Below, one piece after another: positions 25,532 to 61,272 of a stretch of DNA of 64,000 nt. How positions within the stretch are numbered: position 1 is the stretch's first letter; each line of letters starts with the position of its first letter. Under the pieces are notes generated by a model. That model ran no database searches, was not told the origin of the DNA, and was given only the letters and a program-made list of their open reading frames with translations. The position numbers were made by a program, and so were the translations under genes. The stretch is from positions 4,485,206 through 4,549,205 of the forward strand of contig NZ_CP018477.1 in NCBI RefSeq assembly GCF_002277955.1, read 5' to 3'. The DNA is from Thermogutta terrifontis. Its GTDB lineage: Bacteria > Planctomycetota > Planctomycetia > Pirellulales > Thermoguttaceae.

Positions 25532-25712
25532 GAATCTCCTTTCGCGGTGGGCCAACGAATGGTAGGCAAGGTTGGCGGGAGTGCCGACGATTTTATTTGG
25601 CCCATTCCTGTTCCGGCAGCTGAGCAAACTTGACGGCATGTCCGCGGTAACTATACCCCGGCCGCCAGGCGACCGCAAGCATCCGCGCCATGGACGATCC
25701 AGCGTTGAAAAA

Positions 25713-26178
25713 CGGACGTGACAGGCACGTCCCTCCGAGAGACGCTTCGGAGGGGCACGCTTGTCGTGCCCGGGGAATAACATTGGATAATCCAACATTA
25801 CGAAGCGGACGTGACAGGCACGTCCCTCCGAGAGACGCTTCGGAGGGGCACGCTTGTCGTGCCCGCAGAACCAAAATGGATGACCCAGCGTTGGAAAGGC
25901 GGACCTGACAAGCAGGTCCCTCCAAGGGATGTTTCGGAGGGGCACGCTTGTCGTGCCCGGGGAATAACATTGGATAATCCAACATTACGAAGCGGACCTG
26001 ACAGGCACGTCCCTCCGAGAGACGCTTCGGAGGGGCACGCTTGTCGTGCCCGGGGAATAACATTGGATAATCCAACATCGCGAAGCGGATGTGAGAGGCA
26101 CGTCCCTCCGAGAGACGGACCTGACGAGCGGGTCCCTCCGGAAAAGGTCCCGCCGAAAGCGGACCTGGCACCCAACTT
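25713..26178. repeat. 93-bp tandem repeat array, five units
   Basis: Units begin with CGGACSTGACAGGCACGTCC-type hairpins at 25713, 25806, 25900, 25993 and 26086, a period of 93-94 bp. Each unit carries a GGACGTG-type hairpin, CTCCGAGAGACGCTTCGGAG, a GGGCACG-type hairpin (GGGCACGCTTGTCGTGCCC) and a spacer with GGATAATCCAACATT. The third unit is the most diverged. The last unit degrades into extra GGACCTG/CGGGTCC pieces by 26180. Confidence 0.9.
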
Positions 26179-30825: not shown

Positions 30826-31284
30826 GCTTGCTGCCGGCTTCGCAAAGATCGGCAAATGCGCATGGGACGGAGGTGGCCCCTCTGTCCCATTTCTCTTTCG
30901 GAGGGACCCGCTTGTCGGGTCCGAGGGATAACGCTCGATCATCCATTCCCTCTCACCGGGCACGACCAGCGCGCCCCGCCCAATTTTCCGGAGGGACGTG
31001 CTTGTCACGTCCAGATTCGGAGGGACGCGCTTGTCGCGTCCGATCAACACCGATCGGCACCCCGTCACGGAGCATGGCAAGCGTCCCCCTACTCCGAAAA
31101 TTCCTGCCCCTCGTGTCGCCTTCCACCTCCAGACTGGGTGAAGCTCAGGATATGTGTGCCTGGCCTTTTCTTGACAACACCTACCTGGCCGGTCATCATT
31201 ACTGGCGTCTCAAGGGCGGCCAAAGCGGGATGGCTTCGGCTTGTGGTTGAAGTGGCGTGGCCTTTTTCCGGGAGGGTTGAACCG
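30826..31284. repeat. spacer with hairpin repeats
   Basis: Hairpins at 30904-30922 (GGACCCGCTTGTCGGGTCC), near 30995 (GGACGTGCTTGTCACGTCC) and 31023-31041 (GGACGCGCTTGTCGCGTCC), plus a decayed GGGCACG copy near 30958. The rest up to the Tat-protein gene has no gene. Confidence 0.8.
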
Positions 31285-32715
31285 ATGTGTGAACACTGCA
31301 CGCGCCGTGAATTCCTGGGTAGCAGCGTCCTCAGCGCTCTGGCAGCATCCGCGAGCTGGAGCTACACATGGGCATCGCAGGCGGCTCCCGTTCAGCGGCC
31401 TGAAAAAGTCAAGATTGGCGTTCTCTGGTCAGGCTCACCGGGGCCGGCGGATCGTGGCTGGAACACCGATCCGCCTCATGTTGAAAAAATGCAAAAAGTC
31501 CTCACCGAGGTGGAACAAAAGCTGGGGAATGTCGAGCTGGTCCATGGCAAATCGGAGAACGCCGAGCAGACCAAGAACTTTTTGGGCACCATCGGGGAAG
31601 GCACACCGGTTCTCGCCATCAACCTCAGTTGCTTTGCCCTCACCCGGCTGGTCGGTCCAATCCTGGAAGCCCGCCATCCGATGATCGTCTTCTCGCTGCC
31701 GGCCAGTGGGCACGACTGGATGTATCCTCATCGGTGGCAGCGGGCGGGACACCGCGTCACGCTGTTTGCGACGAGCGATCTGGCCGAACTGGAACACGCG
31801 GTGCGGCTGCTGCGGGTCATTCCGCTCCTCAAGCAAACGCGGATTCTTCTGTTCCCGCCGGCCCGCGGAACAGCCCCGGCTTGTTCCCCGGAACTGATCA
31901 AAGAGCGTCTCGGGGCAGAAGTCCTGGCCGTCGAGCAGGCGGCGTTCGACGAGATGATGGCGGCGGTGGAAGAGGACGCCGTCCGCGAAGAAGCCCAGCG
32001 ATGGATCAAAGGCGCCAAGCAGATCATAGAACCCACCGAAGAAGATATCTACAAAGCCGCCCGGGTGAGTGTGGCTCTCAATCGGCTCATGGATAAATAC
32101 CAGGCTCAGGGGCTGGCGGTGGGCACGTGCATGGGCTGGTTGCCACGGGGATTCCCCTGCCTCGGTTTCGCACGGTTGCGGGATCGCGGACTACCGGCCG
32201 CCTGCGAGGGTGACATGGATTCGCTGCTCACGATGCTTATTTTCCGATATGCCTTTGATAAACCCGGCTTCCAGGGAAATGCCACCTTCGACACGTCGCG
32301 GAATGTGCTTTGGACCGCCCACTGCACCGGGCCGCTGAAGCTGGATAGCATCGACGGCCCCGAGCATCCCTATCTGCTCCGCGGGCATTCGGAAGTCGGT
32401 GGCAGCGGATGTGTGCCCGAAGTGCAGTACCGCGTCGGCGAGGTCATCACCCGAACCAAATTCGTTAACCTGGACACCTTACTGATATCCACAGCCAAAA
32501 TTGTGGAAGTGCCCGAAAAATCGGTCCACGGCTGTCGCACGCAGTTGGTCAGCGAAGTCCGCGACGCGGCCAAAATGGTGGTCAACTGGAGCAGCGCCCT
32601 CCAAACCGAGGATGCGATGACGCTCCTCCATCGGGTAGTGTTTTACGGGGATCACCTGCAAAGTGCCTACCACCTGGCCCGCCTGATGGGGTGGAATGTC
32701 ATTGAAGAGGGTTGA
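31285..32715 (+). CDS. Tat-exported L-fucose isomerase-like protein
   Basis: 476 residues. The N-terminus CTRREFLGSSVLSALAASASW is a twin-arginine signal. The mature protein has the layout of the L-fucose/L-arabinose isomerase superfamily: a Rossmann-like first half (KIGVLWSGSP, VLAINLSCFALTRLVGPIL) and a C-terminal half with GLAVGTCMGWLP, LPAACEGDMDSLLTMLIFRYA and HCTGPLKLDSI. Export by Tat is odd for a sugar isomerase, so the protein may have a different role or may be a folded periplasmic enzyme. A GGGAGG box supports the ATG at 31285; the frame stays open further upstream through repeat DNA. Neighbours suggest fucose or sulfated-sugar metabolism. Confidence 0.75.
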   Translation: MCEHCTRREFLGSSVLSALAASASWSYTWASQAAPVQRPEKVKIGVLWSGSPGPADRGWNTDPPHVEKMQKVLTEVEQKLGNVELVHGKSENAEQTKNFLGTIGEGTPVLAINLSCFALTRLVGPILEARHPMIVFSLPASGHDWMYPHRWQRAGHRVTLFATSDLAELEHAVRLLRVIPLLKQTRILLFPPARGTAPACSPELIKERLGAEVLAVEQAAFDEMMAAVEEDAVREEAQRWIKGAKQIIEPTEEDIYKAARVSVALNRLMDKYQAQGLAVGTCMGWLPRGFPCLGFARLRDRGLPAACEGDMDSLLTMLIFRYAFDKPGFQGNATFDTSRNVLWTAHCTGPLKLDSIDGPEHPYLLRGHSEVGGSGCVPEVQYRVGEVITRTKFVNLDTLLISTAKIVEVPEKSVHGCRTQLVSEVRDAAKMVVNWSSALQTEDAMTLLHRVVFYGDHLQSAYHLARLMGWNVIEEG

Positions 32716-45023: not shown

Positions 45024-47902
45024 TCATGGAGTACTTAATTGATTGAAGAAATAGTCGACTGCGGCGATCTTCTGCCTTGCAAGGTCTGAATACTTTGCGG
45101 GGTCACAAAATCCCGGATCTTCAATTATGCCGTCGCCATCGCTATCGTAAGGATCGAATTTCTGGACATCGAATGCATACCCTGCATCGAACAGCTTTTT
45201 CGCATACCCCAATGCTGCCGCCCAACATGATGCCCAATCCCGGTCTGGTAATATTGCACCAATGCCGTGAACGTAGTCTACAAGGTTGCCAGGTTCGTTA
45301 TAATTAAACAGGGTGTTGATGTTGGACTGCTGTGTAAGATACATAAAATACTCCGCGAAGTTGCGCCCGCTATTATCTGGGGCGGGAATTCCCTGAAGAG
45401 ATGGATCAAGCCACAGATACGCAATGGACCAAACAGTGGCCATTTCATAAAACAGTGGGTCCCACCCGAGATTGCTATCATAAAATTCAATTGTGCCATT
45501 TGAACCGGTAAAGATTGCGAAGTACGGATCGTAACCCTTTCGAATGAAATTCAACGAGCTACCATTCTGGAGCTTTAGTAGCGCGGTGTTGTTAGTGCGT
45601 TCGTGTAGCTTCGCCAGTCCGCGATCGACTATGCTAACCGTCAATTCATTCCATTGGCCGTCATCGTCATAAAAATTAATGGTCGCGTCGACGTCAGCGA
45701 GATTTGAGACCAGATCCAGGTTTTGAGGAGACGAGTAGACGCCATTGTACAAGAGGAACCGATCCGCCCCCGCACCACCCGCGAGGGTATCGACGTCGTC
45801 ATCTACACCACCGAACAACCCATCATTCCCGGCTCCGCTGTTGAGAGTGTCAGCACCGGCTTCGCCATAGAGGTTGTCGTTCCCGTCCCCGCCGTACAGG
45901 TTGTCGTTCCCGTCCCCGCCGCTCAGGGTGTCGTTCCCGGCATCGCCAAAGAGCGCGTCGTCATCGGTGCCGCCGTTCAGCACGTCGTCGCCGGCGTCGC
46001 CGTGAAGCGTGTCATTTCCGGCATCGCCAAAGAGTTGGTCTGCACCATCGCTGCCGTACAGCGAGTCGTCGCCTTCATTGCCCTCAAGGTGATCGTCCCC
46101 GGCGTCGCCCCTCAGGAGGTCATCGCCGCGCCCACCCAAAAGCATATCATCGCCATCGGCTCCTTTAAGCACGTCGTCGTAATCGCCGCCGTAGACGATG
46201 TCATCGCCGCCCTGCCCGCGCACCACGTCTTCGCCATTACGTGCGTGCCAGTTTGCGAGCTGCCATGAACCCTTACCTTTGGAGAAAGTCGTACCGACGT
46301 GCAGGCCCAGCGAGCCGTTCCAATCCAATCCGCTGAACGCGATATCGGATTTGTGGTCTGCGTTGAAGTCACCGACGATCGGCGCCTGCCCGAGTAGATG
46401 CGTCCCTTCATCCAAACGGGTGTAACGGGATGTCCAGGATCCATCACGCGTAGAGAACTTGACTGCAATGTCGGGTCCCTGCCGTCCGGGCAAGAGAGGG
46501 TCCAGAAATCCGGGGGCGACAAAGGCGATGTCGGTTACGAGATCCCCGTTGAAGTCCCCGGTGAGGGCGGGACGGCCGGTCAGACTGACCATTTCCTCCA
46601 CCCACAAGCCTTCCCAATTCCCGAACTCCTGATAGGCGGAGTTCCATGCTCCGGTTCCTTTAGAGAACTTGATAGTGAGGTTCATTTCCTCCATGCCGTT
46701 TTGATTTCGGCCGACGAAGACGATATCCGTTTTATGGTCGCCGTTGAAGTCACCGGTAAGAGGAGCATATTGGGCGAGATTTGGGTTGCCGTCCAAGCGG
46801 TTGTAGCGGGATTTCCACGTTCCATCGTAGTTGGCGAACTTGACGGCGATGTCCAATCCGTCCCCGGGAAAATACTGGTTTAACAGATTCCGACCGAGGA
46901 ATGCGATGTCCGTCCTACCATCCCCATTGAAATCGCCGGTTAATGCGTCTTGTTTAGCCAACGCGATGCTTTCGTTGACCCACGCGGCCTCTCCAGCGAA
47001 TTCTTGGTATCGATCGGTCCAGGCACCGTTGCCTTTAGAGAGTTTGACGTCGAGATTCAGCTCGTCATTCCCCTTCCAATTGGTTCCGACCAGGGCGATA
47101 TCCGTTTTGTGATCGCCGTTGAAATCACCCGTCAGAACCCAAAGCCTCGTCCGTTCGAGGGGTCGGTTTCAACTTGCTGCCTCGTCTTCCAGAGTCCGTT
47201 TCGCAGCGAAAAATGGACCACGATGTTCAGGCCGGGCGCGACGGCGTCTTGGGCCACGAAGGCGAGATCATCAGCCCCATCCCCGTTGAAGTCCCCAACG
47301 AGCGGACCGCTGCTTGCGTTAAACACCTGCATGGCATCATTGCCGAGAACATCGTTAACGACCGCATAGTTCCCATTTCCCAGCGAGAACACTGTGGTCG
47401 CAATCAAACCAATACCGTCTATGTAGCGCAATACTAATCCGTCCGTTCTGTGATCCCCGTTGAAATCACCGGTCAGCGGCAAGGTAACGGATGCGTCGAG
47501 GATATCGTCGCCTTCGATGTAATCGTTTGCGGATGTTCCCGTAATGACGTCGTCGCCCGCGCCGCCGAACACATATGCCGGCACAGTGCTTACCCTGTTA
47601 AGGTTGACAACGTCGTCGCCTTCACCCGCGTTGACGACAATGCGGTTGACCTTGTCAAGAGGATAGCATCCCAGCCCATCGATCTTCAGATTGTTATCGA
47701 CCTGACGCACGACGATATTGTCTGACTCGGCCGACCCAAAAATCGCCAGAACACCGCTTCCCGTCAGCATTGCGGAGATACCGGACAGCATCCGGCGATC
47801 CTATAAGCCCTCGAATGAGAGTTGCCTTTTGCTCTTGTGGGAGCCCAGGAGCTTGCTCTTCTTTGAAGCACGCCGCGAAGCACGAGAACCCTTGCGAAAC
47901 AT
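45024..47902 (-). pseudogene. FG-GAP/RTX surface protein gene, broken
   Basis: The original start is the ATG at 47902, preceded by AGGAGGTGCACC. The N-terminus MFRKGSRASRRASKK... ends RQLSFEGL, then an in-frame TAG (47801-47803), then DRRMLSG; in homologous planctomycete exported proteins this reads like LEDRRMLSG, so the stop replaces a Glu codon. After codon 219 of the continuing frame (near 47133) a single-base loss shifts the frame: adding one base would restore GFGFLTGDFNGD. Downstream are FG-GAP/VCBS repeats (LTGDFNGDGRTDIAF), then RTX-type calcium-binding repeats (GGDGNDNLYGGDGND), and a C-terminal domain with an EF-hand-like DPYDSDGDGII. Two separate lesions make this a pseudogene unless one is a sequencing error. 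Confidence 0.85.
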
Positions 47903-48550: not shown

Positions 48551-48721
48551 CACCAAAGCATGCTGCACTTCTTTTTCGCCAATACCAAGCTTCCTTTGGA
48601 ACCGTCGGATTGAGTGCGCAGAGATCAGTAGGAAGTCACTCATCCTCCACCAGCCACCGTGTTCGCACTGCGGCGAGAAGCCGACAGGCGATTATGGCCA
48701 CGGTTACGACTATTCCAGCTA

Positions 48722-49435
48722 GTGCTCCGTCACAGGGTAGTTTTGGGATAGAGAGACTTCAGTTTGCAGCGGACATCTTCCGCGGTCATTTGCCAGTCGA
48801 CGCCGCGCTGCCGAGCGTTGAGGTCTGCCGACCACGCCGCAATTTGCCCCTGAAGAAGATGTAGCTCCTCCAGGCGATCCCCGCTAGACACTGCCGGGTC
48901 AAACAGCCGAGCTCGCAGTCCGCCACGTTCAGCCAACTGCCGTGTTTCGGCGTGTAAACAAACCCAATGCGGCGAAAGTACTGACGAGCCCGCTCCGCTG
49001 GGAACACCTCATAAAACGCCCCATTCGCGTGCGTGTTCAGGTTGTCGCAGATCAGCGTGATCCGCTCACAGTCCGCGTAACGCCCGTCCAAAAGCGCCGA
49101 CGCCTCCGACGCTCAGTCGCTCTTGGTCCTAAAAACTGACGAACCTTTTCCACCGTCTGCGGCCGTAGCCGAACGCTTCGGCAATGCGTTAGTCTGTCCA
49201 AGCCGGACCGTTCGCGTCCGCCTTCAGCAGAATCTGAGCGCGACGGACCTTACGGCTCCTTGCCTTCAGCTTGCGAATGACCTCCTGACATTTCTGACGT
49301 TCTTCCTCGGTCAGCCGGACAATATACTTCTTTCGCATGGCAACCCTCCTTGGCAAAAGGGAACAGAAACGACCACCGATCCTATCCCATCCCACACTCC
49401 CATGACGATCTCAATATTGTCCTGTGACGGAGCAA
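48722..49435 (-). mobile_element. IS630-like element, internally deleted
   Basis: 14-bp inverted ends match exactly: TGCTCCGTCACAGG at 48723-48736 and CCTGTGACGGAGCA at 49421-49434. TA dinucleotides flank both ends (48720-48721 and 49436-49437), as expected for IS630 insertion at TA. The transposase N-terminus (RKKYIVRLTEEERQKCQEVIRKLKARSRKVRRAQILLKAD, start at 49338) is followed by a stop. The DDE-domain C-terminus (ITLICDNLNTHANGAFYEVF, then VYTPKHGSWLNVADCE) is in a shifted frame. At 714 bp it lacks about a third of a normal element, so it is inactive. Confidence 0.85.
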
Positions 49436-49448
49436 TAGATCCCTGTTC

Positions 49449-51908
49449 TCAGCAACTTCGCGATTGCCACAAAGCTCTAAGTGCTTGTCCTGTTGGAGTA
49501 TCCTTCTTGGCAATCTCCACTGGTGTTCCCTCAGCAATTACAGAACCTCCCTGTGGCCCGGCACCTGGCCCCATTTCAATTACGTAGTCACTTGCCCAAA
49601 TAACGAATGGATCATGCTCTATAATGACCACAGAGTGTCCCATATCGAGTAAGCGATCGAAAACGGTGAGCAAGTTTCGAATGTCTCGCAGATGGAGGCC
49701 CGCAGTAGGCTCGTCAAAAACGTACAGTACACCACCTTTCTTCTTTTTTGAAAGTTCTGCGGCCAGCTTTAAACGCTGCGACTCTCCCCCAGACAAGGTG
49801 TCAGTACTTTGTCCTAGACATATGTAACCGAGGCCAATAGCTTCCAAGTCTTCCAGCTTGGCGGCTATTGCAGGAACATCGGAAAAGAGATGCCGAGCTT
49901 CAGAAATGTCCATGTCTAGGACATCAGCAATGGAGTACCCACGGTACTTGACCGATAGCACGGTGCCATTAAACCGTTTGCCGCCACACTCCGGACAAAC
50001 GACATTAAGATCAGCGATCATCCCATTTGGGGGACAAATTCTGCCAAACCCGTGACACGTCGAACAGGCGCCATGCGGGCCATTAAATGTAAAAGATCGC
50101 TCATCAAGCCCCAGCTTATGTGCTTCGGGAGATCGCGCAAAAATGTGGCGTAATCGATCGAATACCTTGGTGTATGTTGCGACTACTGAGCGGGAATTGT
50201 GTCCAATGGGGGCCTGGTCAACCAACACGATATCTGTTATCCTGTCTCTTCCAACAAGTGTACAAGGTTCACTTTGCCGGGTGCGACTTGTCGCAGTCCT
50301 AGCATACCAGCACAGCGAGTCAATGACCAAAGAACTCTTTCCCGATCCGCTTACGCCTGCGATGCAAACCAGAACATGCAGGGGAATATCGACGTCCACA
50401 TTCCGCAAATTGTTTGCTCGGGCCGAGCGAATTTCTAGTTTTTCTTCGCCTACCTCACGACGCTGCCGTTTCAGGTATGAGATATCTGCAGTTATAGCTT
50501 CCGCCGTAGCAGACGACTGGTAGCACAGCCTAATATGACTAGGCGTCCCTTCACACACCTTTGTCCCACCAAATTTCGACGGTCCTGGACCTAATTCGAT
50601 AATATAATCTGCCTGCTCAATTACCTGCGGGTCATGCTCTACAATTAGTACCGTGTTACCACTACCGCTCTCCACTAGGCCACGGATAACGCGCAGGAAG
50701 GAAGGTACTTCCTTTGGGTGAACGCCAACTGTTGGCTCATCTAATACGTAAAGGACGCCCGAAATATTAGACGCCAGGTGCGATGCAAGGTACACTCTGT
50801 GCATTTCACCTGCCGACAAAGATGCAGTCTTTCTGTCTAACGCCAGGTAAGATACACCTAACTCGTCTAGTATGCGGATCAGTTCCAGAATTTTCATTCG
50901 AGGAAGCTCGGCAAACTGATCGCGAACATCGCCAAAGCGTAACTCTTGCAAAGCTTTGGCTATCGATATCATGTCAGAACACTGCCACTCTCTAACAGTT
51001 TTCCCGCCCAGAACAACAGAAGCAGCTTCAGGATCGATCCCTGCCCCGCCGCAGGTGGGGCAGGTTGTTTTGCTCAAGAAACACTCGAGCTCCCGTCGAA
51101 CCCTTAGGCTTTCGGTTTGTTTCAACGTCTTCTCTATCTCGTTAATAATTCCGGGAAACTCCAGTGGGCGTTTTTTGGTTCGTTTTGCCCCATAAAATAA
51201 AGCAACTTTTGCTTCCCGTGGCCATTGCGAATAAGGTGTGCTGATGTCGCAACCAAACTGCTCCAGAAAACGAACAAAGAAATTCCACTTCATCGTTCCC
51301 TTTTTTGGCCCCCCGAATTTCAAACCACCTTCGGCGATTGAAAGATTGGGATCTGGGTAAACTTTTTCGATATCGACACTTTTGGTAACTCCCTCGCCGC
51401 CACACTCGGGACAAGCGCCGGTTGGTGAGTGGTTTGAAAACGCGCCCGGTTGAAATTTACGAATCTCTTTGCCGCAGGATCTGCAATACGTGCGGAAGGC
51501 CGGATTGTACACTGGTCTTTCTTGGGTAGAGCAGTTTCGGCACGGTATTTCTCCGCAGGTTGCAAACAATACGTGCAAAAAAGAACTAACCCTTGTTGTT
51601 GTACCGACCGTGCTCCGAGGGTTGTGAAAGTGTTGGGATTGACGCACTGCAATGGTCGGAGGCAACCCGAGCACAATATCTACTTTTGGCGCGAAAATCG
51701 GGGATACGAAATACAACTCACGTTGGTCCAACGACTCGATTATTCGTCGTCGCCCCTCAGCGAAGATAGTATCAAAAGCTAGTGAGCTCTTTCCGGAGCC
51801 CGAAACACCCGTTATTACTGTCACTTTGTTGTAAGGTATTTTTACATCAATCCCTTTTAGGTTTCCTTCGCGACAACCGTACAGTTCGATTTGACCAGAC
51901 ATAGGCAT
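49449..51908 (-). CDS. UvrA-like ATPase, candidate self-protection protein
   Basis: 819 residues, shorter than housekeeping UvrA (~940). Two ABC ATPase modules are present: Walker A VITGVSGSGKSSLAFDTIF and CIAGVSGSGKSSLVIDSL, signatures SLSAGEMHRVYLASHL and TLSGGESQRLKLAAEL, Walker B VLYVLDEPTVGVHP and VLYVFDEPTAGLHL. Zinc-knuckle pairs remain (CRNC, CRSC, CPEC, CPTC, CSTC, CPEC). Close UvrA paralogs occur in producers of DNA-binding antibiotics, where they give self-resistance (DrrC for daunorubicin is the classic case). Here its start overlaps the end of the upstream radical SAM gene by about 50 bp, so it is part of the peptide operon. A GGAG box supports ATG 51908. Confidence 0.88.
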   Translation of the reverse strand: MPMSGQIELYGCREGNLKGIDVKIPYNKVTVITGVSGSGKSSLAFDTIFAEGRRRIIESLDQRELYFVSPIFAPKVDIVLGLPPTIAVRQSQHFHNPRSTVGTTTRVSSFLHVLFATCGEIPCRNCSTQERPVYNPAFRTYCRSCGKEIRKFQPGAFSNHSPTGACPECGGEGVTKSVDIEKVYPDPNLSIAEGGLKFGGPKKGTMKWNFFVRFLEQFGCDISTPYSQWPREAKVALFYGAKRTKKRPLEFPGIINEIEKTLKQTESLRVRRELECFLSKTTCPTCGGAGIDPEAASVVLGGKTVREWQCSDMISIAKALQELRFGDVRDQFAELPRMKILELIRILDELGVSYLALDRKTASLSAGEMHRVYLASHLASNISGVLYVLDEPTVGVHPKEVPSFLRVIRGLVESGSGNTVLIVEHDPQVIEQADYIIELGPGPSKFGGTKVCEGTPSHIRLCYQSSATAEAITADISYLKRQRREVGEEKLEIRSARANNLRNVDVDIPLHVLVCIAGVSGSGKSSLVIDSLCWYARTATSRTRQSEPCTLVGRDRITDIVLVDQAPIGHNSRSVVATYTKVFDRLRHIFARSPEAHKLGLDERSFTFNGPHGACSTCHGFGRICPPNGMIADLNVVCPECGGKRFNGTVLSVKYRGYSIADVLDMDISEARHLFSDVPAIAAKLEDLEAIGLGYICLGQSTDTLSGGESQRLKLAAELSKKKKGGVLYVFDEPTAGLHLRDIRNLLTVFDRLLDMGHSVVIIEHDPFVIWASDYVIEMGPGAGPQGGSVIAEGTPVEIAKKDTPTGQALRALWQSRSC

Positions 51909-53872
51909 TGAGGCTCCGCAAAAGTGGGAAAATGTTGCAAGATTGTCTCGGCTCCTGATTCTTGCATCATCAGTATTTTGTAACCAAGTGCTTCGATTAT
52001 GTCTTTTGTTTGTATATCGCAGCAGCCTCCCCAGACCCGAATTAGATCTTTGACTCTGCTTTCTTCGGCGGGGCCTGACAGGATGAGGGCGGTATCGCGC
52101 GCTAAGTCGATTGCCACTATGTTCCTTTGCCCGGATTCTTTACCAGGTACGCAGACATAGTAGACGGTGGCAAAATTCTTGTGCCAAAATTGCCTGTCTA
52201 TTGAACAACTCTCGAAGACCACAATCGGCCTCGTTCTTTGGGTGCGTCCGCGGCACAATACATCGGCAAAAACACGACCGGAATAGCAACGGGCATTTCC
52301 TAAGCTACTACCCCCCAAAACTTCCGGCACCATTCGGACGTACTTCCGAATTTCGTTCCACTGTGCTTCGGTAGGATAAATGTGCGCGTAAATAGCAGAT
52401 GTGGCTTTGGCTTCATCAGAAGGATCAACGCCAAGACGCTCGCAAAGCTCGAGGTAAATGCCAGATCCGGGAATTGCCTGGAACACGGAGATTGAGTACG
52501 AATAAATAGCGTCCCTATGTTCCTCTAGAAATGCGATCGTCTTGTCGCGATCTTCAGTCGTCTCTCCGGGATAGCCAAACATGATGTAAAGGTGGCAGCG
52601 TATTCCGGCATGGCTCGCCCGCCTAATGATATCCGAAATCGTTTTCACGTTCGTCCCCTTGCGCATCAAGTCCAACACCCGCTGCGAACCCGACTCGAAC
52701 CCAAATCGCAACATGTGGCACCCACCGTCCGCAAGAAAACTCAGCAATCGCTTATCGAGAAAATGAACTTCCGGACGAGCGTTAGCCACCCACTTCGCTT
52801 TTGGCGCCAGGGCCCTAGCAATATGTTTCATGACCCCAGGTGTGACAGCAGCGTCGACAATATAGACAGCGTCGAGATCGTAAAGTTGCGCCGTAAGACC
52901 TAATTGTTCTACCTCAGCCTGCGTAATCAGACCGTCAGCAAATGTCTGATCGCCGCTGCAAAACTTACAACATCCGTAGTAGCACCGCTTTCGAAAAGAA
53001 TATGGTGCAACGCGTCCGCCAGAAGTGTATGAGCGCCAAACGACGTCCCTGAAATCGGGCATTTTCTTGTAAATTTTTCGGGCATCGTCGGGCCAGCGTA
53101 TATAAACTCGTCCTGCAACGCTGTGTTCCACTCCAGGAAGATCTGCAGGTTTTTCTCCTACTGCCAGGGATAATAGAGCATACTCTCCTGGCCCACTCAC
53201 AATAACATCGACGGCGTCAAACGCACACAAAATCTTGATCGGGTCATAGCACCAAGATGAGAAATAGGCTCCGCCGAGAACGACTAAACAGTCCGAGCTG
53301 GCCTCTTTGAAGAAGGCCGCCAAAGCTAAAGCGGGAACTAGCTGGGTTGAAAAACAGATAGATAGGCCGATAATCGGACTACGCTCACTTGTAATAATCT
53401 GGAAACTTCGTGTTTGGATTAGGTTAGTTATCAAGGGCTTGACAAACTCGCACTCTTTCTCGAGACTGGAAACAAAATTTCCTGTGCTAAGGCCGTCTGG
53501 AACTCCGAACCCGTCGAATGTTATAACAGGACGTCCCTCCAAAAACTCCAACAATTTCAAGCCGGCGGAGATACTATCAATCCGGTCGGCATACTCCGTC
53601 AGCAACGAGATTCCTGACCGAACCAACTGACTGCGAAATCCGTCCAGATGGTCAATCCTCGAATCCACTTTTTTTTGCAGGTTATGGGGTGAGGTAAGAA
53701 GGTTAAATAGCTCGATACTGCTATCCCACACATGGCAACTGACCCCGTGGGATACCAGGAACGCCTTGAGTAGATACGGGGCCAAGACGGGCATCGTTAC
53801 GTCAGCCACAGGGGGGACCACCAAAAACACCTTACGATTCCGCTTTTCCCTTGCAATGCTGACCGAAAACAT
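51857..53872 (-). CDS. B12-binding-type radical SAM enzyme
   Basis: 671 residues. The N-terminal ~190 residues look like a cobalamin-binding-type domain (KVFLVVPPVADVTMPVLAPYLLKAFLVSHGVSCHVWD). The radical SAM core begins YSFRKRCYYGCCKFCSGD, an iron-sulfur motif spaced CX4CX2C as in the CYxGxCxFC subgroup. LADGGCHMLRFGFESGSQRVLDLMRKGTN and CHLYIMFGYPGETTEDRD are typical later elements. Such enzymes often methylate or otherwise modify RiPP peptides; class assignment here is by pattern only. A GGGGGAG box supports ATG 53872, so the first five codons of the longer frame are not needed. Located between the pqqD-like gene and the UvrA paralog; overlaps the latter. Confidence 0.85.
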   Translation of the reverse strand: MFSVSIAREKRNRKVFLVVPPVADVTMPVLAPYLLKAFLVSHGVSCHVWDSSIELFNLLTSPHNLQKKVDSRIDHLDGFRSQLVRSGISLLTEYADRIDSISAGLKLLEFLEGRPVITFDGFGVPDGLSTGNFVSSLEKECEFVKPLITNLIQTRSFQIITSERSPIIGLSICFSTQLVPALALAAFFKEASSDCLVVLGGAYFSSWCYDPIKILCAFDAVDVIVSGPGEYALLSLAVGEKPADLPGVEHSVAGRVYIRWPDDARKIYKKMPDFRDVVWRSYTSGGRVAPYSFRKRCYYGCCKFCSGDQTFADGLITQAEVEQLGLTAQLYDLDAVYIVDAAVTPGVMKHIARALAPKAKWVANARPEVHFLDKRLLSFLADGGCHMLRFGFESGSQRVLDLMRKGTNVKTISDIIRRASHAGIRCHLYIMFGYPGETTEDRDKTIAFLEEHRDAIYSYSISVFQAIPGSGIYLELCERLGVDPSDEAKATSAIYAHIYPTEAQWNEIRKYVRMVPEVLGGSSLGNARCYSGRVFADVLCRGRTQRTRPIVVFESCSIDRQFWHKNFATVYYVCVPGKESGQRNIVAIDLARDTALILSGPAEESRVKDLIRVWGGCCDIQTKDIIEALGYKILMMQESGAETILQHFPTFAEPQCLCLVKSNCTVVAKET

Positions 53873-54019: not shown

Positions 54020-54277
54020 CTACTCGCGCGCCAGTAAATCCAGGTTTATACAGGCATCCATAAATTCCTTCACTTTGGGATAAACCTCTTCCTTTGTCAG
54101 GCCGAAGCGACATGCCAAATTGTCCGCAATCTCCTCAAGATCACGTCTGCCATCGATCTGTTTCCAAATCTCGTAAGCATCGTGGTTGAATGCTAAAATT
54201 GGGGTACGGTTTGTAAAGACGAGGGCTCCAAACCTTTCCGGCCGTACCTTCACTCCTTGTTTTACCTTCAAACTCAT
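54020..54277 (-). CDS. PqqD-like peptide-binding (RRE) protein
   Basis: 85 residues with the PqqD fold pattern: LKVKQGVKVRPERFGALVFTNRTPILAFNHDAYEIWKQIDGRRDLEEIADNLACRFGLTKEEVYPKVKEFMDACINLDLL. The winged-helix PqqD/RRE domain holds the leader of a precursor peptide for its radical SAM partner. It starts 12 bp after the SPASM gene at 54290 ends. As a stand-alone RRE it supports reading the surrounding genes as a RiPP pathway. Confidence 0.88.
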   Translation of the reverse strand: MSLKVKQGVKVRPERFGALVFTNRTPILAFNHDAYEIWKQIDGRRDLEEIADNLACRFGLTKEEVYPKVKEFMDACINLDLLARE

Positions 54278-54289
54278 TGAAGTTCCGCC

Positions 54290-55330
54290 TCATCCCAAAT
54301 TTTGCCTGGATACTCCCCCTGCCATATGGTAGTCGCGTGTACCACACCACTCGCCCGTGGTCGACTTAGCCGCTGCGCGGCATCCCCCGTGGCAATGTGG
54401 GAAAAGCTTACACGTCTTACATCGCGCTGGCACGTGCTCATTCCGCACGAACGCTGCAAAGACGGGAGAGCAGCATTTAATTTCACTGATAGACTTTGTC
54501 AGAATGTTGCCGCCAAGCTTTATACGAGACAGGCCACAAACCATCAACTCACCCGTTACATCTACATAAAACCTGTCATAGCCGTAGGAACACGTGTTAG
54601 CAAGATATTGCAACTCGGGAGGCAGTGCGCAGAACGGTATCGCCTCTGCGATCTCTATATGGGGATACGTCTCTTCTCGTCGGATAAGGTCCACGATGTG
54701 AAATGCTTCCACCAATTGCTCTCCCGTGGGACATAAATGTTTTGAGTTGGCACCCACTCCTACTGGAAGAAAGCGTGTTATTGTCATATAACGCAAGCCT
54801 ATCCGTTGAAAAAACTCTACTACCTCACCGAGCTCGTGTGCGTTAGCCGCATTCAACACAAAGTTACTCGCAATCGGTATTTTATCCCGTTCCAAGAACT
54901 CTCGTATAGCACGAATTGTGCGGTCAAAGCTTCCCTCAACACCTGTTAGTGCATCATGCGTCTTCCGAATACCATGGACAGAAACACTAACGCTGACAAT
55001 AGGGAATTCATGAAGGCGTTTTACCGCTACATCGTTCATCAATGTGCCATTTGAAAGGATCATTACGTTCGGAAATAATTCCACGGCACATCGAAGTACG
55101 TCAAAAAACCCGGGGTGAAGCAAAGGCTCCCCCCCGGTCAAGGTCACTTGCATTACTTGCTGACGCGCTAGCGATTCCAGTATTGGAATTGCATTAGTAC
55201 AATACCGCGGACGTTGCGAGTTGTAACAAAAACGGCAGCGCAGATTACAGTCCTCAGTCAGCTCGACCTGCACAAGAAGGGGAGCCAAATCAATTAGATG
55301 ATCATACGATGGCACACTCCCAGCCTGCAT
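54290..55330 (-). CDS. radical SAM/SPASM peptide-modifying enzyme B
   Basis: 346 residues. The cluster motif is CNLRCRFC in VQVELTEDCNLRCRFCYN (CX3CX2C). TLTGGEPLLHPGF and SVSVHGIRKTHDALTG fit the radical SAM core. The C-terminal SPASM region has Cys residues in NTCSYGYDRFYVDVTGELMVCGLSR and ARCKTCKLFPHCHGGC for additional iron-sulfur clusters. Enzymes of this type form thioether or C-C crosslinks in precursor peptides. An AAAGGA box supports ATG 55330. It begins 14 bp after enzyme A ends and is followed by the pqqD-like gene. Confidence 0.9.
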   Translation of the reverse strand: MQAGSVPSYDHLIDLAPLLVQVELTEDCNLRCRFCYNSQRPRYCTNAIPILESLARQQVMQVTLTGGEPLLHPGFFDVLRCAVELFPNVMILSNGTLMNDVAVKRLHEFPIVSVSVSVHGIRKTHDALTGVEGSFDRTIRAIREFLERDKIPIASNFVLNAANAHELGEVVEFFQRIGLRYMTITRFLPVGVGANSKHLCPTGEQLVEAFHIVDLIRREETYPHIEIAEAIPFCALPPELQYLANTCSYGYDRFYVDVTGELMVCGLSRIKLGGNILTKSISEIKCCSPVFAAFVRNEHVPARCKTCKLFPHCHGGCRAAAKSTTGEWCGTRDYHMAGGVSRQNLG

Positions 55331-55344
55331 TACTATTCCTTTCT

Positions 55345-56343
55345 TTATCTTTTTCGCCGGTTTTTGAGGTGTTTGGCATAAGTTTGCCGTGCAGCGTAGC
55401 AGCCCCCACCGCACTTTGCAAGGTTGCCGCACGACTGACACTCAGGCAAGGGAAGGGTATGGAGCCAAAAACGTCTACTAGCGAAAGTTCTCCAAGTTTC
55501 AGCGAACGACTGTACGCTCAGGTCTCCTAAAACTGGTTGCGAGACCAGCGTACACGGCGTTACCAAACCGCTTGGCGTTATCCTCGCAACATTCAACCCT
55601 ATTGTGCAAGCAATGTTAGCTTCAGCGATGAAATTGCGGATATCATCCGGGACAACGCACAAGGGAATTGGCTGAGGCAAGGCGAATCTGCTGAAACGCT
55701 GGCTCCCGTTCTGGAAATCCCTCACCAGTCGCAGAGCTTGATAAATCTCACAGGGTCCTAAGGTATGCCTATCTTCCTTGCGACCGGGAACTAAGCCGAT
55801 TGTGACAAGTAACGTTTCCACCCCTAAAGATCTCAGATACCACATCGTGTCATAGAGATAGTGAAAATTGGCTTTGAAAAGCACAACATTAGCTGCGACA
55901 TACACCCCTGCGTCCACTAGATTACCAATACCCCTTTCAACTTCAATGATAGCCCCTTTCTGCCCAACCATTGCGTCGTGAGGCCCCCCGGGAGGTGACA
56001 AAACTGTAGTGCATATAGAATTGAAAAACTTCGCTATCTGATTTGCCCGCCGATGATTAACGAGGGACGCATTCGTGTTCAGGTGCAAATCAAATCCAAG
56101 CGCCGCTGCGTACTCGCAGATACCAAAAAAATCTTCATGTAACAGCGGCTCGCCACCATTGAAATTAATGCTGATAATCGAGGCACGGGCCAATTCATCT
56201 AAGATGCGGCGTACGAGACCAACCGGTGCGGTTTTGTAGCGATCACAAGCAGGGTCACCCGCAAATCTGTTGTAACAAAACCAACACCGACGATTGCACG
56301 CGTACGTTAACTCCAGTTGCACCGATGTTGGCATCAACATCAT
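55345..56343 (-). CDS. radical SAM/SPASM peptide-modifying enzyme A
   Basis: About 332 residues. The cluster motif lies in VQLELTYACNRRCWFCYNRF (CX3CX2C), and INFNGGEPLLHEDFFGICEYAA and HLNTNASLVN are core elements. SPASM-type Cys residues lie in ACTIGLNVARITPSGLVTPC and ECQSCGNLAKCGGGC. It starts about 40 bp after the precursor gene, an arrangement typical of RiPP operons. A GGAAAG box fits ATG 56343; ATG 56391, which overlaps the precursor stop by 10 bases, is a possible alternative with translational coupling. It is clearly diverged from enzyme B, so the two probably catalyse different steps. Confidence 0.88.
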   Translation of the reverse strand: MMLMPTSVQLELTYACNRRCWFCYNRFAGDPACDRYKTAPVGLVRRILDELARASIISINFNGGEPLLHEDFFGICEYAAALGFDLHLNTNASLVNHRRANQIAKFFNSICTTVLSPPGGPHDAMVGQKGAIIEVERGIGNLVDAGVYVAANVVLFKANFHYLYDTMWYLRSLGVETLLVTIGLVPGRKEDRHTLGPCEIYQALRLVRDFQNGSQRFSRFALPQPIPLCVVPDDIRNFIAEANIACTIGLNVARITPSGLVTPCTLVSQPVLGDLSVQSFAETWRTFASRRFWLHTLPLPECQSCGNLAKCGGGCYAARQTYAKHLKNRRKR

Positions 56344-56381
56344 GCAATACTTTCCGCGACAACTTTCCGTGACGCCCGCGC

Positions 56382-56594
56382 CTAACGACATGCACAGCAC
56401 TGACACGGGGTGCACTTAGCCACCACCTTCGCCCCCTCACCTCTCATATATTCCACTACCTCCGGATCGACGACTCTGGAAGCTGCGTCGTTTTGAGAAA
56501 AAGGCTTCTTAAATGGATTAAACAGCTCAATCTTGGGATTTAACGTTCTTGAGCCCCGCGTTTGAGTATCAACCCCACGCGTACTCCGATCCAT
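56382..56594 (-). CDS. putative RiPP precursor peptide, Cys-rich C-terminus
   Basis: 70 residues. ATG 56594 is 8 bases after GGAGG. The leader-like part has a conserved-looking aromatic patch (NPKIELFNPFKKPF) and an acidic helix region (VVDPEVVEYMRGEG). The peptide ends KCTPCQCCACR, with Cys at 61, 64, 66, 67 and 69: five Cys in the last eleven residues. No enzyme fold fits, and it heads an operon of three radical SAM enzymes plus a PqqD-like protein, which makes a precursor role likely. I do not recognise the core from any described class. A metal-binding peptide is the main alternative. Confidence 0.72.
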   Translation of the reverse strand: MDRSTRGVDTQTRGSRTLNPKIELFNPFKKPFSQNDAASRVVDPEVVEYMRGEGAKVVAKCTPCQCCACR

Positions 56595-56650: not shown

Positions 56651-56679
56651 AATCTAGTTAACGACCGAGTGGTTGTCAA
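56651..56679 (-). promoter_or_regulatory. sigma70-like promoter of the RiPP operon
   Basis: On the minus strand a perfect TTGACA (56679-56674) is followed after exactly 17 bases by TAGATT (56656-56651), four of six matches to TATAAT. Transcription would begin near 56644, giving a leader of about 50 bases before the precursor ATG at 56594. Confidence 0.7.
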
Positions 56680-56694
56680 GGGTGCACCAAATTG

Positions 56695-56978
56695 ACTGTG
56701 TCATACGTGAATAGAAATGACCCCTTGCGGCGTGAATAGAAATGTCCCTATCAACCCTCCGAAAGGAGGGTTGTATGGAGACATTAGAGATGAGTGCGAA
56801 AGAGCGAGCGCGGCTGGAGGTTTTCGGCCGGGTGAAGGCGGGAGACATCACGCTGGTAAAGGCGAGCGAGATCTTGGGGATGAGTTATCGGCAGGTGAAG
56901 CGTTCGTGGGCACGTTCTCAGGCGTTAGGGGCAGCGGGATTGGTGCACCGCTTGCGAGGTCGGTCCTCCGATCGGCAA
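56695..56978 (+). mobile_element. ISNCY-like transposase fragment
   Basis: ATG 56775, after a GAAAGGAGGG box, begins METLEMSAKERARLEVFGRVKAGDITLVKASEILGMSYRQVKRSWARSQALGAAGLVHRLRGRSSDR, the helix-turn-helix start of ISNCY-family transposases. The protein breaks off after about 67 residues. Just upstream are two copies of GTGAATAGAAATGNCCC. The fragment ends near 56976-56985 inside a secreted-enzyme gene on the other strand. Boundaries are approximate. Confidence 0.75.
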
Positions 56979-57813
56979 GCGGAGCCCGCGGATAAGGGAC
57001 AATCTGATTGGTATACAGATGCTCCATGGGGCGTTCGCCCGCATCCAAATCGACTGGTTTTTCCCAGTGGAGGAAGTCGTTGGAAGTGGTTCGCGCGATC
57101 CACCGAACTCCCTGCCGAAAGACGCGGAAGTAAAGCACATACCGGCTTTCCATCTCCGACCAGAAGGCATTATTCTGCGAGTCGAAGGCCCCTTCAGAGA
57201 ATACCGGAGCATCTTGAACTTGCTGCCAGTGGATGCCATCCGGGGAGACGAAGGCCAAAAGTCCAGGCTCCCCAGTTCCTCCCAGCGCTTTAAAGCGGGC
57301 ATCCGGCGGGCAGTCACGCCGAGTATCAACAAAGGGAGCAAAATTGTGGCAACCTCTGTTGCGGGCCAGCACAGCGTTGTTGTCCTTCCTTCCCGCCACT
57401 TCATACAGCCCCAGTCTTGGCCGAGTCCAATGGATGCCGTCGGCACTTTCCGCCACACAGGTGACTTCCGTATCGAAGTCGTGCGATGCCCGGGGCATAC
57501 CGCGGTAGTACATTAGGAACCGGTCCCCATCCTTGAGAATCGTCACGTAGCCGCTGTAAATCCCCTCCCACGGTTGATCGAACTGGAAGACGATCTCCTG
57601 CGGTTGCGGGGTGTGAAGCTCCTGCCGACAACCCTCCAACTTGTCAATCAGCAGATCATCGATGAAAAGCTCGCGTCGCTGACCGATGGAAATGGCGTTT
57701 TCAGCCTCTGCAGCACCACCCCGGCGTGTCTCCCTCGACCAGCAGCAAACCGCCAGGACCACCGTGACTCCAACCCCAAGAGCTCTTTTGAGCGAAAGGC
57801 GCTGAGTTCTCAT
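56848..57813 (-). pseudogene. secreted glycosidase-like protein gene, 3'-truncated by IS
   Basis: Signal peptide (LKRALGVGVTVVLAVCCWSRETRRGGAAEA), then ISIGQRRELFIDDLLIDKLEGCRQELHTP and WEGIYSGYVTILKDGDRFLMYYRG, a five-bladed-propeller pattern of the GH43/GH32-like kind common in planctomycetes. Family members continue well past the point where this one meets PYPRAP (near 56980). From there the frame reads only the reverse of the ISNCY transposase, giving a meaningless Pro/Ser tail. About 279 real codons remain of an expected 450 or more. A GAGGAGG box precedes ATG 57813. Confidence 0.75.
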
Positions 57814-58637
57814 AGCCTCCTCGCCGGGCAATGGAAATTTCGGGACTGACTATGCAACGCAAATAACAGGGCCCTTCTGTTTGCTTTCGCTTCGCACCAA
57901 TCAAGTGCGCAGGCACGCCCAGATAAGCTCCCGAACCTTCACGAGGATCCACGACCGAGACGGCCAACTTCCCAAAATTCGATGCACATGGCAAGCCGGG
58001 GCGCCGATGGCACGGCCCCAGTGTCTGTTAGAATCTTCGAGAAGCGATCACAGGGCATGAGAATAGCTGTGGGGGCATCGCGGAAGCGTGCTGCCGTCCG
58101 AAACGGGGCGCCCCGCCGTACCTCACCAACAGCACGCCAAGCCTGATCCGTCCGGTCAAATTTCGATAGGCACAATTCATGAATTGCCCCTACTGGAATT
58201 CGGGGCTTTTGGCGGTGCTCGATGTTTTGCAGATTTCTTGGAGGGGCACGCTCGTCCTGCCCGGGGCAAGGGCAATGATGGATCATCGATCCGTGTTGAT
58301 CGGACGTGACACGCACGTGCCTCCGAAAAAACGGGCCCGACAAGCGGGTCCCTCCGGCGTTGTAGGGGCAATTCGTGAATTGCCCCTACCGGTGGGCACA
58401 TTTCGTGGTCCTGGGAAAACAGGACAAGTGGCAAGGCTGTGAAGGCTAAAGCCTTCACCAAAAAGCGGCGATGAATCGCCGCACTCCATATGGAGTGCGG
58501 GGCTTTAGCCCCGCTTTCCGCGCGGGACTTTAGTCCCCGCGGAAACGCAAGAGATGATGCAACATTGAAGGCCGGACGTGACAGGCACGTCCCTCCGAAT
58601 GCCGAGTCGCCAAGGGAGGTGGCGACGCCAATGGCTC
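57814..58637. repeat. 824-bp spacer with composite repeats
   Basis: No gene. Palindrome copies lie near 58170-58195 (GGCACAATTCATGAATTGCCCC) and 58363-58390 (GTAGGGGCAATTCG half site, perfect palindrome). Hairpins lie near 58305, 58334 (GGGCCCGACAAGCGGGTCC) and 58574 (GGACGTGACAGGCACGTCC). The four-palindrome composite is at 58439-58516 in inverted orientation, with CATATG in place of CATG in its ACTCC element. The first 350 bp hold nothing specific. Confidence 0.8.
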
Positions 58638-59894
58638 TCAGGTGGCGACGGGGGCGCTGCGGGTCAATTCGCGATAGACACGCTGGGCTTCGGGAAATGG
58701 TTCCAGGGCGCGGTCGAGGATTCCCAGTGTGTAAGCGATGGTCACGCCGTAGTTGCAAATGGGAACGCCTGCCCGCCGACAGAGCTCCATTCGCGTGAGG
58801 ACCTCGCGCCGGTTCCACATGCAGGCCCCACAGTGCACGAGCAACCGATAGGGAGACAAGTCTTCCGGAAAGTCGTGGCCCTGCACGGTCGTGAAATGCA
58901 GTTTCCCACCCACCCGCTCTTGCAGCCAGCGAGGTATTTTTTCCCGGCCGATGTCGTCCGCAATGGGGTGGTGGCTGCACGACTCCGCCACGAGGACGTG
59001 ATCCCCCGGCCGTAATCGATCGATGGCCAGGGCTCCTCGAACGAACTCGTTGAGATCTCCTTTTTGACGGGCGAGAAGAATGGAGAATGATGTCATTTTG
59101 ACGTGTGGGGGGGTAACTCGCGCAACCTGGGCAAAGGCCTGGCTGTCGGTCACAACAAGGACTGGCGGCTCCTTCAAGGATTCCAGTGCCCGGGCGAGTT
59201 CAGAGTCGCGGCAGACCATGGCCAGCGCGCCATGGTCGAGCAGTTCACGCAACGTGAGCACCTGTGGCTGGATAAGGCGTCCTTTAGGCGCCTCTTTATC
59301 GATCGGCACGACGAGCACCACAATCTGCCCGGACTGCACCAGATCGGCAATCAGCGGCGGACTGTTGATGAAGTCTTCCGGAGCGTTTTGAATGAGGGCC
59401 TGGCGAAGCGATTCCAGCCCCTCGTGCCTGATCGCGGCTGTGAATACGTAAGGGATTTTTTGCTGGTCCAGTTGGGCGAGGAGAGTTGCGTCCGGACGAG
59501 CAACGTCAACCTTGTTGAATACGACAATAACCGGGATACGACGCTGATGAAACTCGGCCAGCAGTTGCTCTTCAAAAACGCCCCATCGATCGCTATCAAC
59601 CACCAGCAGCGCCAAATCGGTCCGATCCAAGACCTGGCGGGTTTTCTTAACCCGCATGGCACCCAGGGCACCTTCATCGTCCACGCCCGCCGTATCAATG
59701 AACAGCACCGGCCCAAGCGGCAGCATCTCCATCGGCTTTTCCACGGGATCGGTGGTCGTCCCCGCCACGTCGGAGACGATCGAGACCTGTTGCCGGGTAA
59801 GCATGTTGAGCAGGGCTGACTTCCCGGCGTTTCGCCGACCGAAAATTCCGATGTGCAGCCGAAAACTTTTTGGAGTGGGACGATATTCAGTCAT
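58638..59894 (-). CDS. hydF: [FeFe]-hydrogenase maturation GTPase HydF
   Basis: 418 residues, standard length. The N-terminal Era-like GTPase domain has FGRRNAGKSALLNMLTRQ (G1), DVAGTTTDPVEK (G2), DTAGVDDEG (G3) and FNKVDVARPD (G4). The C-terminal cluster-binding part shows ESCSHHPIADD and HCGACMWNRRE, the CxH...HCxxC pattern that holds the [4Fe-4S] cluster and the diiron precursor. HydF assembles the H-cluster with HydE and HydG, then delivers it to the hydrogenase. No hydE, hydG or hydrogenase gene is in the window, so it must work with genes elsewhere. Confidence 0.93.
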   Translation of the reverse strand: MTEYRPTPKSFRLHIGIFGRRNAGKSALLNMLTRQQVSIVSDVAGTTTDPVEKPMEMLPLGPVLFIDTAGVDDEGALGAMRVKKTRQVLDRTDLALLVVDSDRWGVFEEQLLAEFHQRRIPVIVVFNKVDVARPDATLLAQLDQQKIPYVFTAAIRHEGLESLRQALIQNAPEDFINSPPLIADLVQSGQIVVLVVPIDKEAPKGRLIQPQVLTLRELLDHGALAMVCRDSELARALESLKEPPVLVVTDSQAFAQVARVTPPHVKMTSFSILLARQKGDLNEFVRGALAIDRLRPGDHVLVAESCSHHPIADDIGREKIPRWLQERVGGKLHFTTVQGHDFPEDLSPYRLLVHCGACMWNRREVLTRMELCRRAGVPICNYGVTIAYTLGILDRALEPFPEAQRVYRELTRSAPVAT

Positions 59895-60058: not shown

Positions 60059-60460
60059 TCATGGCCGATACACCGCCGCACACCGCGGCGTTTCCCAAAG
60101 ACGTGTTTCCACAACCGGCAGACCTTTTTGCGCCACATAGTCGAATATGAGCCGCGCGATATTCTCGGCGGTAGGATTTTCGTCCATCAAGAAAAGCGGC
60201 TCACCCATTTCCTGCAGGACAGGTACCACCGGGTCCTGGCGGTGGAGAATCATCCGGTGATCGAGATTCTCATCAATCCAGCCCTGGACGACGCGCTTGA
60301 TGTCCGTAAAGTCGAGAACCATTCCCAGTTCGTCGAGAGACGCTGTTTCAAAGGTGATGACAAGCAAGCCGTTGTGGCCGTGAAGGTTCCGGCACTTTCC
60401 CGAATAGTTGAGCAAACGGTGACCGTAGCAGAAATCGATTTCACGCAATACCTGATACAT
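60059..60460 (-). CDS. queD: 6-carboxytetrahydropterin synthase (QueD/PTPS family)
   Basis: 133 residues from ATG 60460 (GAGGA box 7 bases upstream). VLREIDFCYGHRL has the first zinc His, YSGKCRNLHGHNGLLVITFET carries the catalytic Cys and HGHN zinc pair, and later MVLDFTDIKRVVQGWIDENLDHRMIL and ENPTAENIARLIFDYV contain the base-binding Glu region. Together with queC just upstream it fits the queuosine pathway, turning dihydroneopterin triphosphate to 6-carboxytetrahydropterin. Sepiapterin-type PTPS is the alternative, less likely given the neighbour. Confidence 0.9.
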   Translation of the reverse strand: MYQVLREIDFCYGHRLLNYSGKCRNLHGHNGLLVITFETASLDELGMVLDFTDIKRVVQGWIDENLDHRMILHRQDPVVPVLQEMGEPLFLMDENPTAENIARLIFDYVAQKGLPVVETRLWETPRCAAVYRP

Positions 60461-60567
60461 GGACACTTCCTCGCATAAGGGCTAGCCAATGACGGGCTGA
60501 TGTGATTTTTGTCGAAGGAGCATTTTACCGGTCATCGGTCAGATCAAGCGGCTGCTGATCGCAACGT

Positions 60568-61272
60568 TCAGGCTGGCGACACTGATTTTCCGTCGAGATC
60601 GGAAGCGTAACGGGTCAGATCGGGGATTCCTGCCTCCCGGAAAGCACGGCGTCTTTCCGCACATTTGTTGCATCCGCCGCAATGGAGGCCGTCCATCGGG
60701 GCGATGCAGGAGAAGGTCTCGTGGAGAGGCCACCGCTGCCCCCATTTCATCCACTCCGTTTTGGACACGCCCTGCAACGGTCGGATGATCTGGAGCGGTG
60801 GATCGCCGTACAGGTTAAGCGCGGTCTCCACAGTGCGTAAGAATTCTTCGGAAGCATCGGCAAATGGATTGGTATCCAAAATTCCAAGGGCCAGAAATGG
60901 CACGCCCTGCTGGCGACACCACAGACCCGCTTTGACTAGCAGCAGGAGGTTTCGCCCGGGCAGGAACACGGCCTCGTCGGGAGAGTCGGCATCGGGAATC
61001 TGTTCCCCGGTGAGACTCCAGTGATCGCCGTAAATGTCGCGGACTGGGAGTTCGAGGATTGCGAGGGGACGGACACGGTCAGCAAACCAAGCGAGGATCC
61101 TGCGGACGGCAGCCAGCTCGGCCTGCTCCCAGAACAGCCCGGACCTCACGTACAGCGGCGCGACACACCTGCCGTCTTCCACCAGTTTGGCCAGCATGAG
61201 ACTGCTATCCAGTCCTCCACTGAGCAGCACCGCAACGGAGCTGTCATTTTGATTCAATTTTGTTCCGTGCAT
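60568..61272 (-). CDS. queC: 7-cyano-7-deazaguanine synthase
   Basis: 234 residues. The PP-loop motif VAVLLSGGLDSSLMLAKL lies at the N-terminus. A C-terminal zinc-binding Cys set is visible in CIAPMDGLHCGGCNKCAERRRAF. The enzyme uses ATP to make preQ0 from 7-carboxy-7-deazaguanine on the way to queuosine. It lies 108 bp upstream of queD on the same strand; queE and queF are not in the window. I found no clear preQ1 riboswitch upstream. Confidence 0.92.
   Translation of the reverse strand: MHGTKLNQNDSSVAVLLSGGLDSSLMLAKLVEDGRCVAPLYVRSGLFWEQAELAAVRRILAWFADRVRPLAILELPVRDIYGDHWSLTGEQIPDADSPDEAVFLPGRNLLLLVKAGLWCRQQGVPFLALGILDTNPFADASEEFLRTVETALNLYGDPPLQIIRPLQGVSKTEWMKWGQRWPLHETFSCIAPMDGLHCGGCNKCAERRRAFREAGIPDLTRYASDLDGKSVSPA

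Follow-up and report, generated by a model that had tools for sequence, protein, structure and literature searches.

A six-gene operon of Thermogutta terrifontis, located within a window of 64,000 nucleotides (the whole stretch of DNA analysed here), encodes a short peptide with a five-cysteine tail, three radical SAM enzymes, a PqqD-type protein and a UvrA-like ATPase. We favor, with moderate confidence, the view that the operon specifies an orphan radical SAM RiPP pathway, that the product of this pathway probably acts on DNA and that the UvrA-like protein gives immunity. Taken by itself, the proposal that the 70-aa ORF at the head of the operon is the RiPP precursor is likely and well supported by its context, while the idea that the product acts on DNA and is countered by UvrA-type immunity is a plausible hypothesis.

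A short ORF with a five-cysteine tail heads the operon

The initial annotation, made from the letters of the DNA, had singled out a 70-residue ORF ending in KCTPCQCCACR as a candidate precursor, with a well-spaced ribosome-binding site and a sigma70-like promoter about 60 bases upstream. The ORF was confirmed and assigned to the minus strand, no strand having been named in the initial annotation, and both expression signals were borne out.

56382–56594, minus strand: precursor peptide, 70 aa, whose leader contains NPKIELFNPF and whose putative core is KCTPCQCCACR (ORF reading)
56651–56679, minus strand: sigma-70-like promoter TTGACA-17-TAGATT (10/12 matches; 0.4 expected in shuffles)

The ORF runs from 56594 down to 56382, from ATG to TAG, and encodes MDRSTRGVDTQTRGSRTLNPKIELFNPFKKPFSQNDAASRVVDPEVVEYMRGEGAKVVAKCTPCQCCACR, in which the five cysteines of the C-terminal end are spaced CxxCxCCxC. 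The ATG is preceded, across an 8-nt gap, by the Shine-Dalgarno sequence GGAGG, and the −10 box of the promoter-like site, the only such site in the scanned 600-bp region upstream, lies ~57 nt from the ATG. A longer form starting at a GTG (83 aa, from 56633) would begin ~17 nt past the −10 box and is without a comparable Shine-Dalgarno sequence.

The cysteine tail is not due to chance. Among 56,779 simulated ORFs of 30–150 aa, taken from 60 simulated windows, one contained five cysteines within the final 12 residues and CxxCxCCxC occurred in none; among the 670 ORFs of the real window, the precursor alone has either feature. No Pfam or NCBIfam model matched the peptide, including the known RiPP family models searched and the metal-binding families in both collections.

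The operon encodes two radical SAM/SPASM maturases and a PqqD-type protein

Behind the precursor gene, on the same strand, lie three genes that encode the expected machinery of a RiPP pathway.

55345–56391, minus strand: radical SAM/SPASM maturase 1, 348 aa (PF04055 and PF13186 above cut-off)
54290–55330, minus strand: radical SAM/SPASM maturase 2, 346 aa (Pfam Radical_SAM and SPASM above cut-off)
54020–54277, minus strand: 85-aa peptide chaperone of the PqqD type, a RiPP recognition element (PF05402, 38.9 bits against a cut-off of 23.4)

Both maturases retain the CX3CX2C cluster motif. Maturase 1 contains CNRRCWFC, GGEP and the SPASM motifs CX12GX4C and CX2CX5CX3C, without the seventh SPASM cysteine; maturase 2 contains CNLRCRFC, GGEP and a complete seven-cysteine SPASM domain. 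The two are 27% identical, and among all sequences compared neither has a better match than the other. The solved structures nearest to them are SkfB and PqqE, with SkfB the nearest to maturase 2. Both maturases score with models of the PqqE/mycofactocin type, and the MftB and PqqD NCBIfam models match the 85-aa PqqD protein below cut-off.

None of these matches places the operon in a named family. Curated NCBIfam models remained far below their cut-offs for both maturases, and no radical SAM or PqqD protein of the operon passed a named RiPP family's curated cut-off. The GeoRSP models TIGR04303 and TIGR04302 gave 100.5 and 75.7 bits against 400, and 21.9 against 100, and the sactipeptide maturase models gave 115.3 against 300 (SkfB) and 89.7 against 625 (StsB). 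The general features of a RiPP cluster are nevertheless present: a 70-aa ORF overlapping the start of maturase 1, Radical_SAM and SPASM domains above the Pfam cut-off, and a leader-recognition element in the form of the PqqD domain (PF05402).

A third radical SAM enzyme resembles RiPP C-methyltransferases

51857–53872, minus strand: radical SAM protein, 671 aa, a relative of the RiPP C-methyltransferases that bind B12 (Radical_SAM domain, NCBIfam)

For the 671-aa protein, NCBIfam gives TIGR03975 (RiPP maturation radical SAM C-methyltransferase) as the top match, with the N-terminus alignable from model position 1, but the score of 78.5 bits is below the cut-off of 281.85 and the C-terminal ~185 aa had no known family or relatives that we could find. 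The match to a B12-binding domain is likewise weak (20.0 against a Pfam cut-off of 32.1). The cluster motif, CX4CX2C, was suspected of being broken, a suspicion that was dropped since the same spacing is normal, occurring in most of the relatives shown. A structure model computed from the single sequence (mean pLDDT 36) was unusable for a fold search.

The last gene encodes a UvrA-like ATPase without a UvrB-binding domain

49449–51908, minus strand: UvrA-like ATPase, 819 aa, without UvrB-binding domain; candidate self-resistance protein (Pfam, alignments)

The initial annotation did not mention this gene. Both ATPase halves are present, and the insertion (DNA-binding) domain PF17755, at residues 179–275, scores above cut-off. 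Residues 6–128 and 141–812 align to full UvrA, and comparison with eight full-length UvrAs, of which T. terrifontis itself supplied three, revealed that ~115 residues are missing between CRNC (at about residue 125) and YCRSC (at about residue 143). The missing stretch is the UvrB-binding domain. By contrast with full UvrA, Ecm16 (7SH1) gives a single unbroken alignment to residues 6–810. Ecm16 is an echinomycin resistance protein that has no UvrB-binding domain, a loss that has been linked to UvrB independence (PMC10192343), and uvrA-like genes have been used in a mining study to find DNA-intercalator clusters (PMC10413001).

The protein thus has two features of a self-resistance UvrA, the absence of the UvrB-binding domain, which is the hallmark of Ecm16 and DrrC, the self-resistance proteins of organisms that make DNA intercalators, and the presence of the insertion domain needed for DNA binding. 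With Ecm16, DrrC, MtrX and CmrX it shares these features, the ATPase halves and a location in a biosynthetic operon. However, it is no closer to this group than to ordinary UvrA, being 37–39% identical to ordinary UvrAs and 37% identical to a UvrA2-like protein, and, unlike Ecm16, in which zinc module 1 is absent, it keeps the four cysteines of that module (CRNC, YCRSC). Since these cysteines are kept and the distances to UvrA and UvrA2-like proteins are equal, the protein is only a candidate member of the Ecm16/DrrC group, which it resembles by anatomy, and may have lost its UvrB-binding domain independently. As the genome contains three further UvrA loci, the copy in the operon is an extra one. 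Elsewhere in the same genome (G000:C1, ~460072–465216), UvrA matches fall within one open frame of 2375 aa, which suggests a double-length UvrA.

The operon is probably an acquired island

The six genes form a run on the minus strand in the order precursor, maturase 1, maturase 2, PqqD, third radical SAM enzyme and UvrA-like protein, with the precursor gene directly behind the promoter-like site. Along the operon, the intergenic gaps are −10, 14, 12, 147 and −52 nt, the largest being 147 nt. The ATG of maturase 1 lies inside the final codons of the precursor (10-nt overlap) and the start of the UvrA-like gene lies inside the end of the third radical SAM gene (52-nt overlap). All six reading frames are intact. 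The GC content of the six genes is 46–51% (49% for the run) versus 57% for the window; that of the R1 chromosome (4,810,751 bases) is 57.34% (PMC5673643). Remnants of transposable elements lie on both sides.

48719–49438, no strand assigned: IS-like element of ~720 bp, bounded by imperfect inverted ends of 31 nt (81%) and containing disrupted transposase frames or fragments; downstream edge of the island (repeat ends, ORFs)
56742–57293, plus strand: fragment of an ISNCY-like transposase, marking the upstream edge of the island (NF033594, HTH_28)

Because the GC content is low and transposase remnants flank the operon, it was probably acquired, and an acquired island is the simplest reading. 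Neither an exporter nor a protease gene is present among the six genes, which counts against a secreted antibiotic. As the operon is bordered directly by an insertion sequence, exporter and protease genes may have been cut off or may lie elsewhere. A reading of the operon as a defence system was set aside, since the matches it drew, to viperin-like radical SAM proteins and ABC-ATPases, were all generic.

Searches for homologs point to an orphan cluster

The initial annotation had proposed that homologs in planctomycete genomes should conserve the cysteine spacing and the leader, and that the lack of a conserved homolog beside related radical SAM genes would refute a precursor. No such homolog was found in the sampled genomes, which, taken literally, is the refuting outcome. 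Matches to the precursor did not rise above noise in its own genome, plasmids or viral contigs, or in 392 genomes of the phylum, where every match had E above 1e-3. The enzymes gave similar results. For maturase 1, close relatives reached only 28–32% identity, the genome collection yielded one generic match (25%), and no ortholog was found there or in plasmids, viral contigs, phylum genomes or the phylum of the Desulfobulbus genome. Nor were orthologs found for maturase 2 in the sampled order genomes and plasmids or for the third radical SAM enzyme in the sampled phylum genomes and plasmids, and no radical SAM ortholog was seen in same-genus genomes. The sampling took in ~390 genomes of the phylum, 247 of the order, 100 relatives and 198 genomes from another phylum, and an additional scan of 84,980 species was of a kind that detects close relatives only.

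Better partial matches had neighbourhoods belonging to different systems, and a filter for cysteine-tailed short ORFs over the retrieved partial-match loci gave no convincing second precursor. A different RiPP-like set was observed on an Indioceanicola profundi plasmid (L059, 8338–12841), consisting of an NTF2-like gene, a radical SAM gene, PqqD, a B12-type radical SAM gene and a further radical SAM gene; the NTF2-like gene at its head has no cysteine tail.

Since neither the precursor nor the radical SAM enzymes have orthologs in the sampled genomes, the conservation test could not be passed, and since no homologous precursor or cluster was found, conservation of core and leader cannot be claimed. 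We read the missing homologs as reflecting an orphan cluster rather than as evidence against a precursor role. What stands of the earlier proposal is thus the genomic context: the candidate opens an operon that also encodes two radical SAM/SPASM enzymes, PqqD and a methyltransferase-like enzyme.

Other features of the window

A high-copy dispersed repeat occupies 58240–58605. A query covering it had 180 matches within the T. terrifontis genome and 127 in one genome of the same genus; two other same-genus genomes gave only 3–4 matches, none of those listed being to the repeat itself. When read as ORFs, the repeat encodes peptides such as VGAIHELPL, and similar peptides occur in ORFs at 23393–25945 and 30856–32715. 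A HydF-like GTPase (hydrogenase maturation, identified by eye) at 58638–59894 adjoins QueD-like (60059–60466) and QueC-like (60568–61272) ORFs; [FeFe]-hydrogenases, unusual for planctomycetes, have been reported in T. terrifontis R1 (PMC5673643). Two adjacent minus-strand frames at 45024–47791 encode one or more proteins with RTX-type calcium-binding repeats and FG-GAP repeats and are possibly one frameshift-split gene.

Discussion

How might the products of the operon work together? In the pathway we envision, the PqqD-type protein would bind the precursor leader, perhaps at NPKIELFNPF, and the two SPASM radical SAM enzymes would form thioether or C-C bonds in the cysteine-rich tail KCTPCQCCACR. 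Carbon methylation is the probable task of the third radical SAM enzyme, and the leader would be removed by a protease encoded elsewhere. DNA is the probable target of the mature peptide or of a by-product, and the UvrA-like ATPase, without the part that calls in UvrB, would recognize and clear peptide-bearing DNA, as is thought for Ecm16 (echinomycin) and DrrC (daunorubicin). The most specific version of this proposal, that DNA is the direct target of a radical-SAM-made ribosomal peptide whose five-cysteine core is crosslinked, and that a UvrA without UvrB binding protects the producer, is put forward tentatively, as a possibility that we would not yet bet on.

The missing exporter would also fit a modified peptide that is kept inside the cell and serves there as a redox cofactor or binds metal, comparable to PQQ or mycofactocin, with the UvrA-like protein being a separate repair gene or simply carried along. 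The scores of the maturases with PqqE/mycofactocin-type models and of the PqqD protein with MftB and PqqD, the similarity of maturase 2 to PqqE among solved structures, and the ability of five cysteines to bind metal all point in this direction. We nonetheless consider such a role rather unlikely, as the UvrA-like gene shares 52 nt with the methyltransferase-like gene and no longer encodes the UvrB-binding domain, which a repair protein of the ordinary type needs. Moreover, the cores of PQQ and mycofactocin, which carry Tyr and Glu, or Val-Tyr, have no cysteine cluster.

That the ORF encodes an unmodified small cysteine-rich metal-binding protein or regulator, and that the maturases have another substrate, seems improbable. 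CxxC and CC spacings are typical of metal ligands, and no homolog displays a conserved leader and core, but the ORF heads the maturase operon and overlaps maturase 1, and no metal-binding family model matches it. In addition, since the other short minus-strand ORFs of the island have no cysteine tails and are located in IS or spacer DNA, the island offers no other candidate substrate. More improbable still is a non-functional island, a remnant in decay that insertion sequences had carried in. Although IS remnants on either side, low GC content and radical SAM genes without orthologs in same-genus genomes are what such a remnant would leave, six intact frames, preserved catalytic motifs, a good promoter-like site and a ribosome-binding site argue against decay.

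The individual parts of the operon belong to known kinds; neither the way they are combined nor the precursor falls within a family model searched. A small precursor, one or more SPASM maturases and a PqqD-type recognition protein are also encoded together in the PQQ, mycofactocin, GeoRSP and SkfB-type sactipeptide operons. Unlike the precursors of these systems, the Thermogutta precursor matches no model and ends in a CxxCxCCxC tail, and its operon has in addition a third radical SAM gene and a UvrA-like gene. With this tail and three radical SAM enzymes, the proposed substrate lies outside every curated precursor family. The source is a cultured hot-spring thermophile, and the enzymes may be stable enough for in vitro work.

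Finally, we note that a resistance gene often reveals the target of the product, so a UvrA-like protein without the UvrB-binding domain, encoded among radical SAM peptide genes, predicts that the ribosomal peptide acts on DNA, a prediction that is directly testable. No paper linking RiPPs, radical SAM enzymes and an excinuclease was found in the literature searched. The Thermogutta cluster is ribosomal and planctomycete, whereas Ecm16, DrrC, MtrX and CmrX come from actinobacterial non-ribosomal-peptide and polyketide clusters, the only documented kinds of product that we found for such resistance. If our reading is true, UvrA-type clearance would extend to RiPPs and to planctomycetes.
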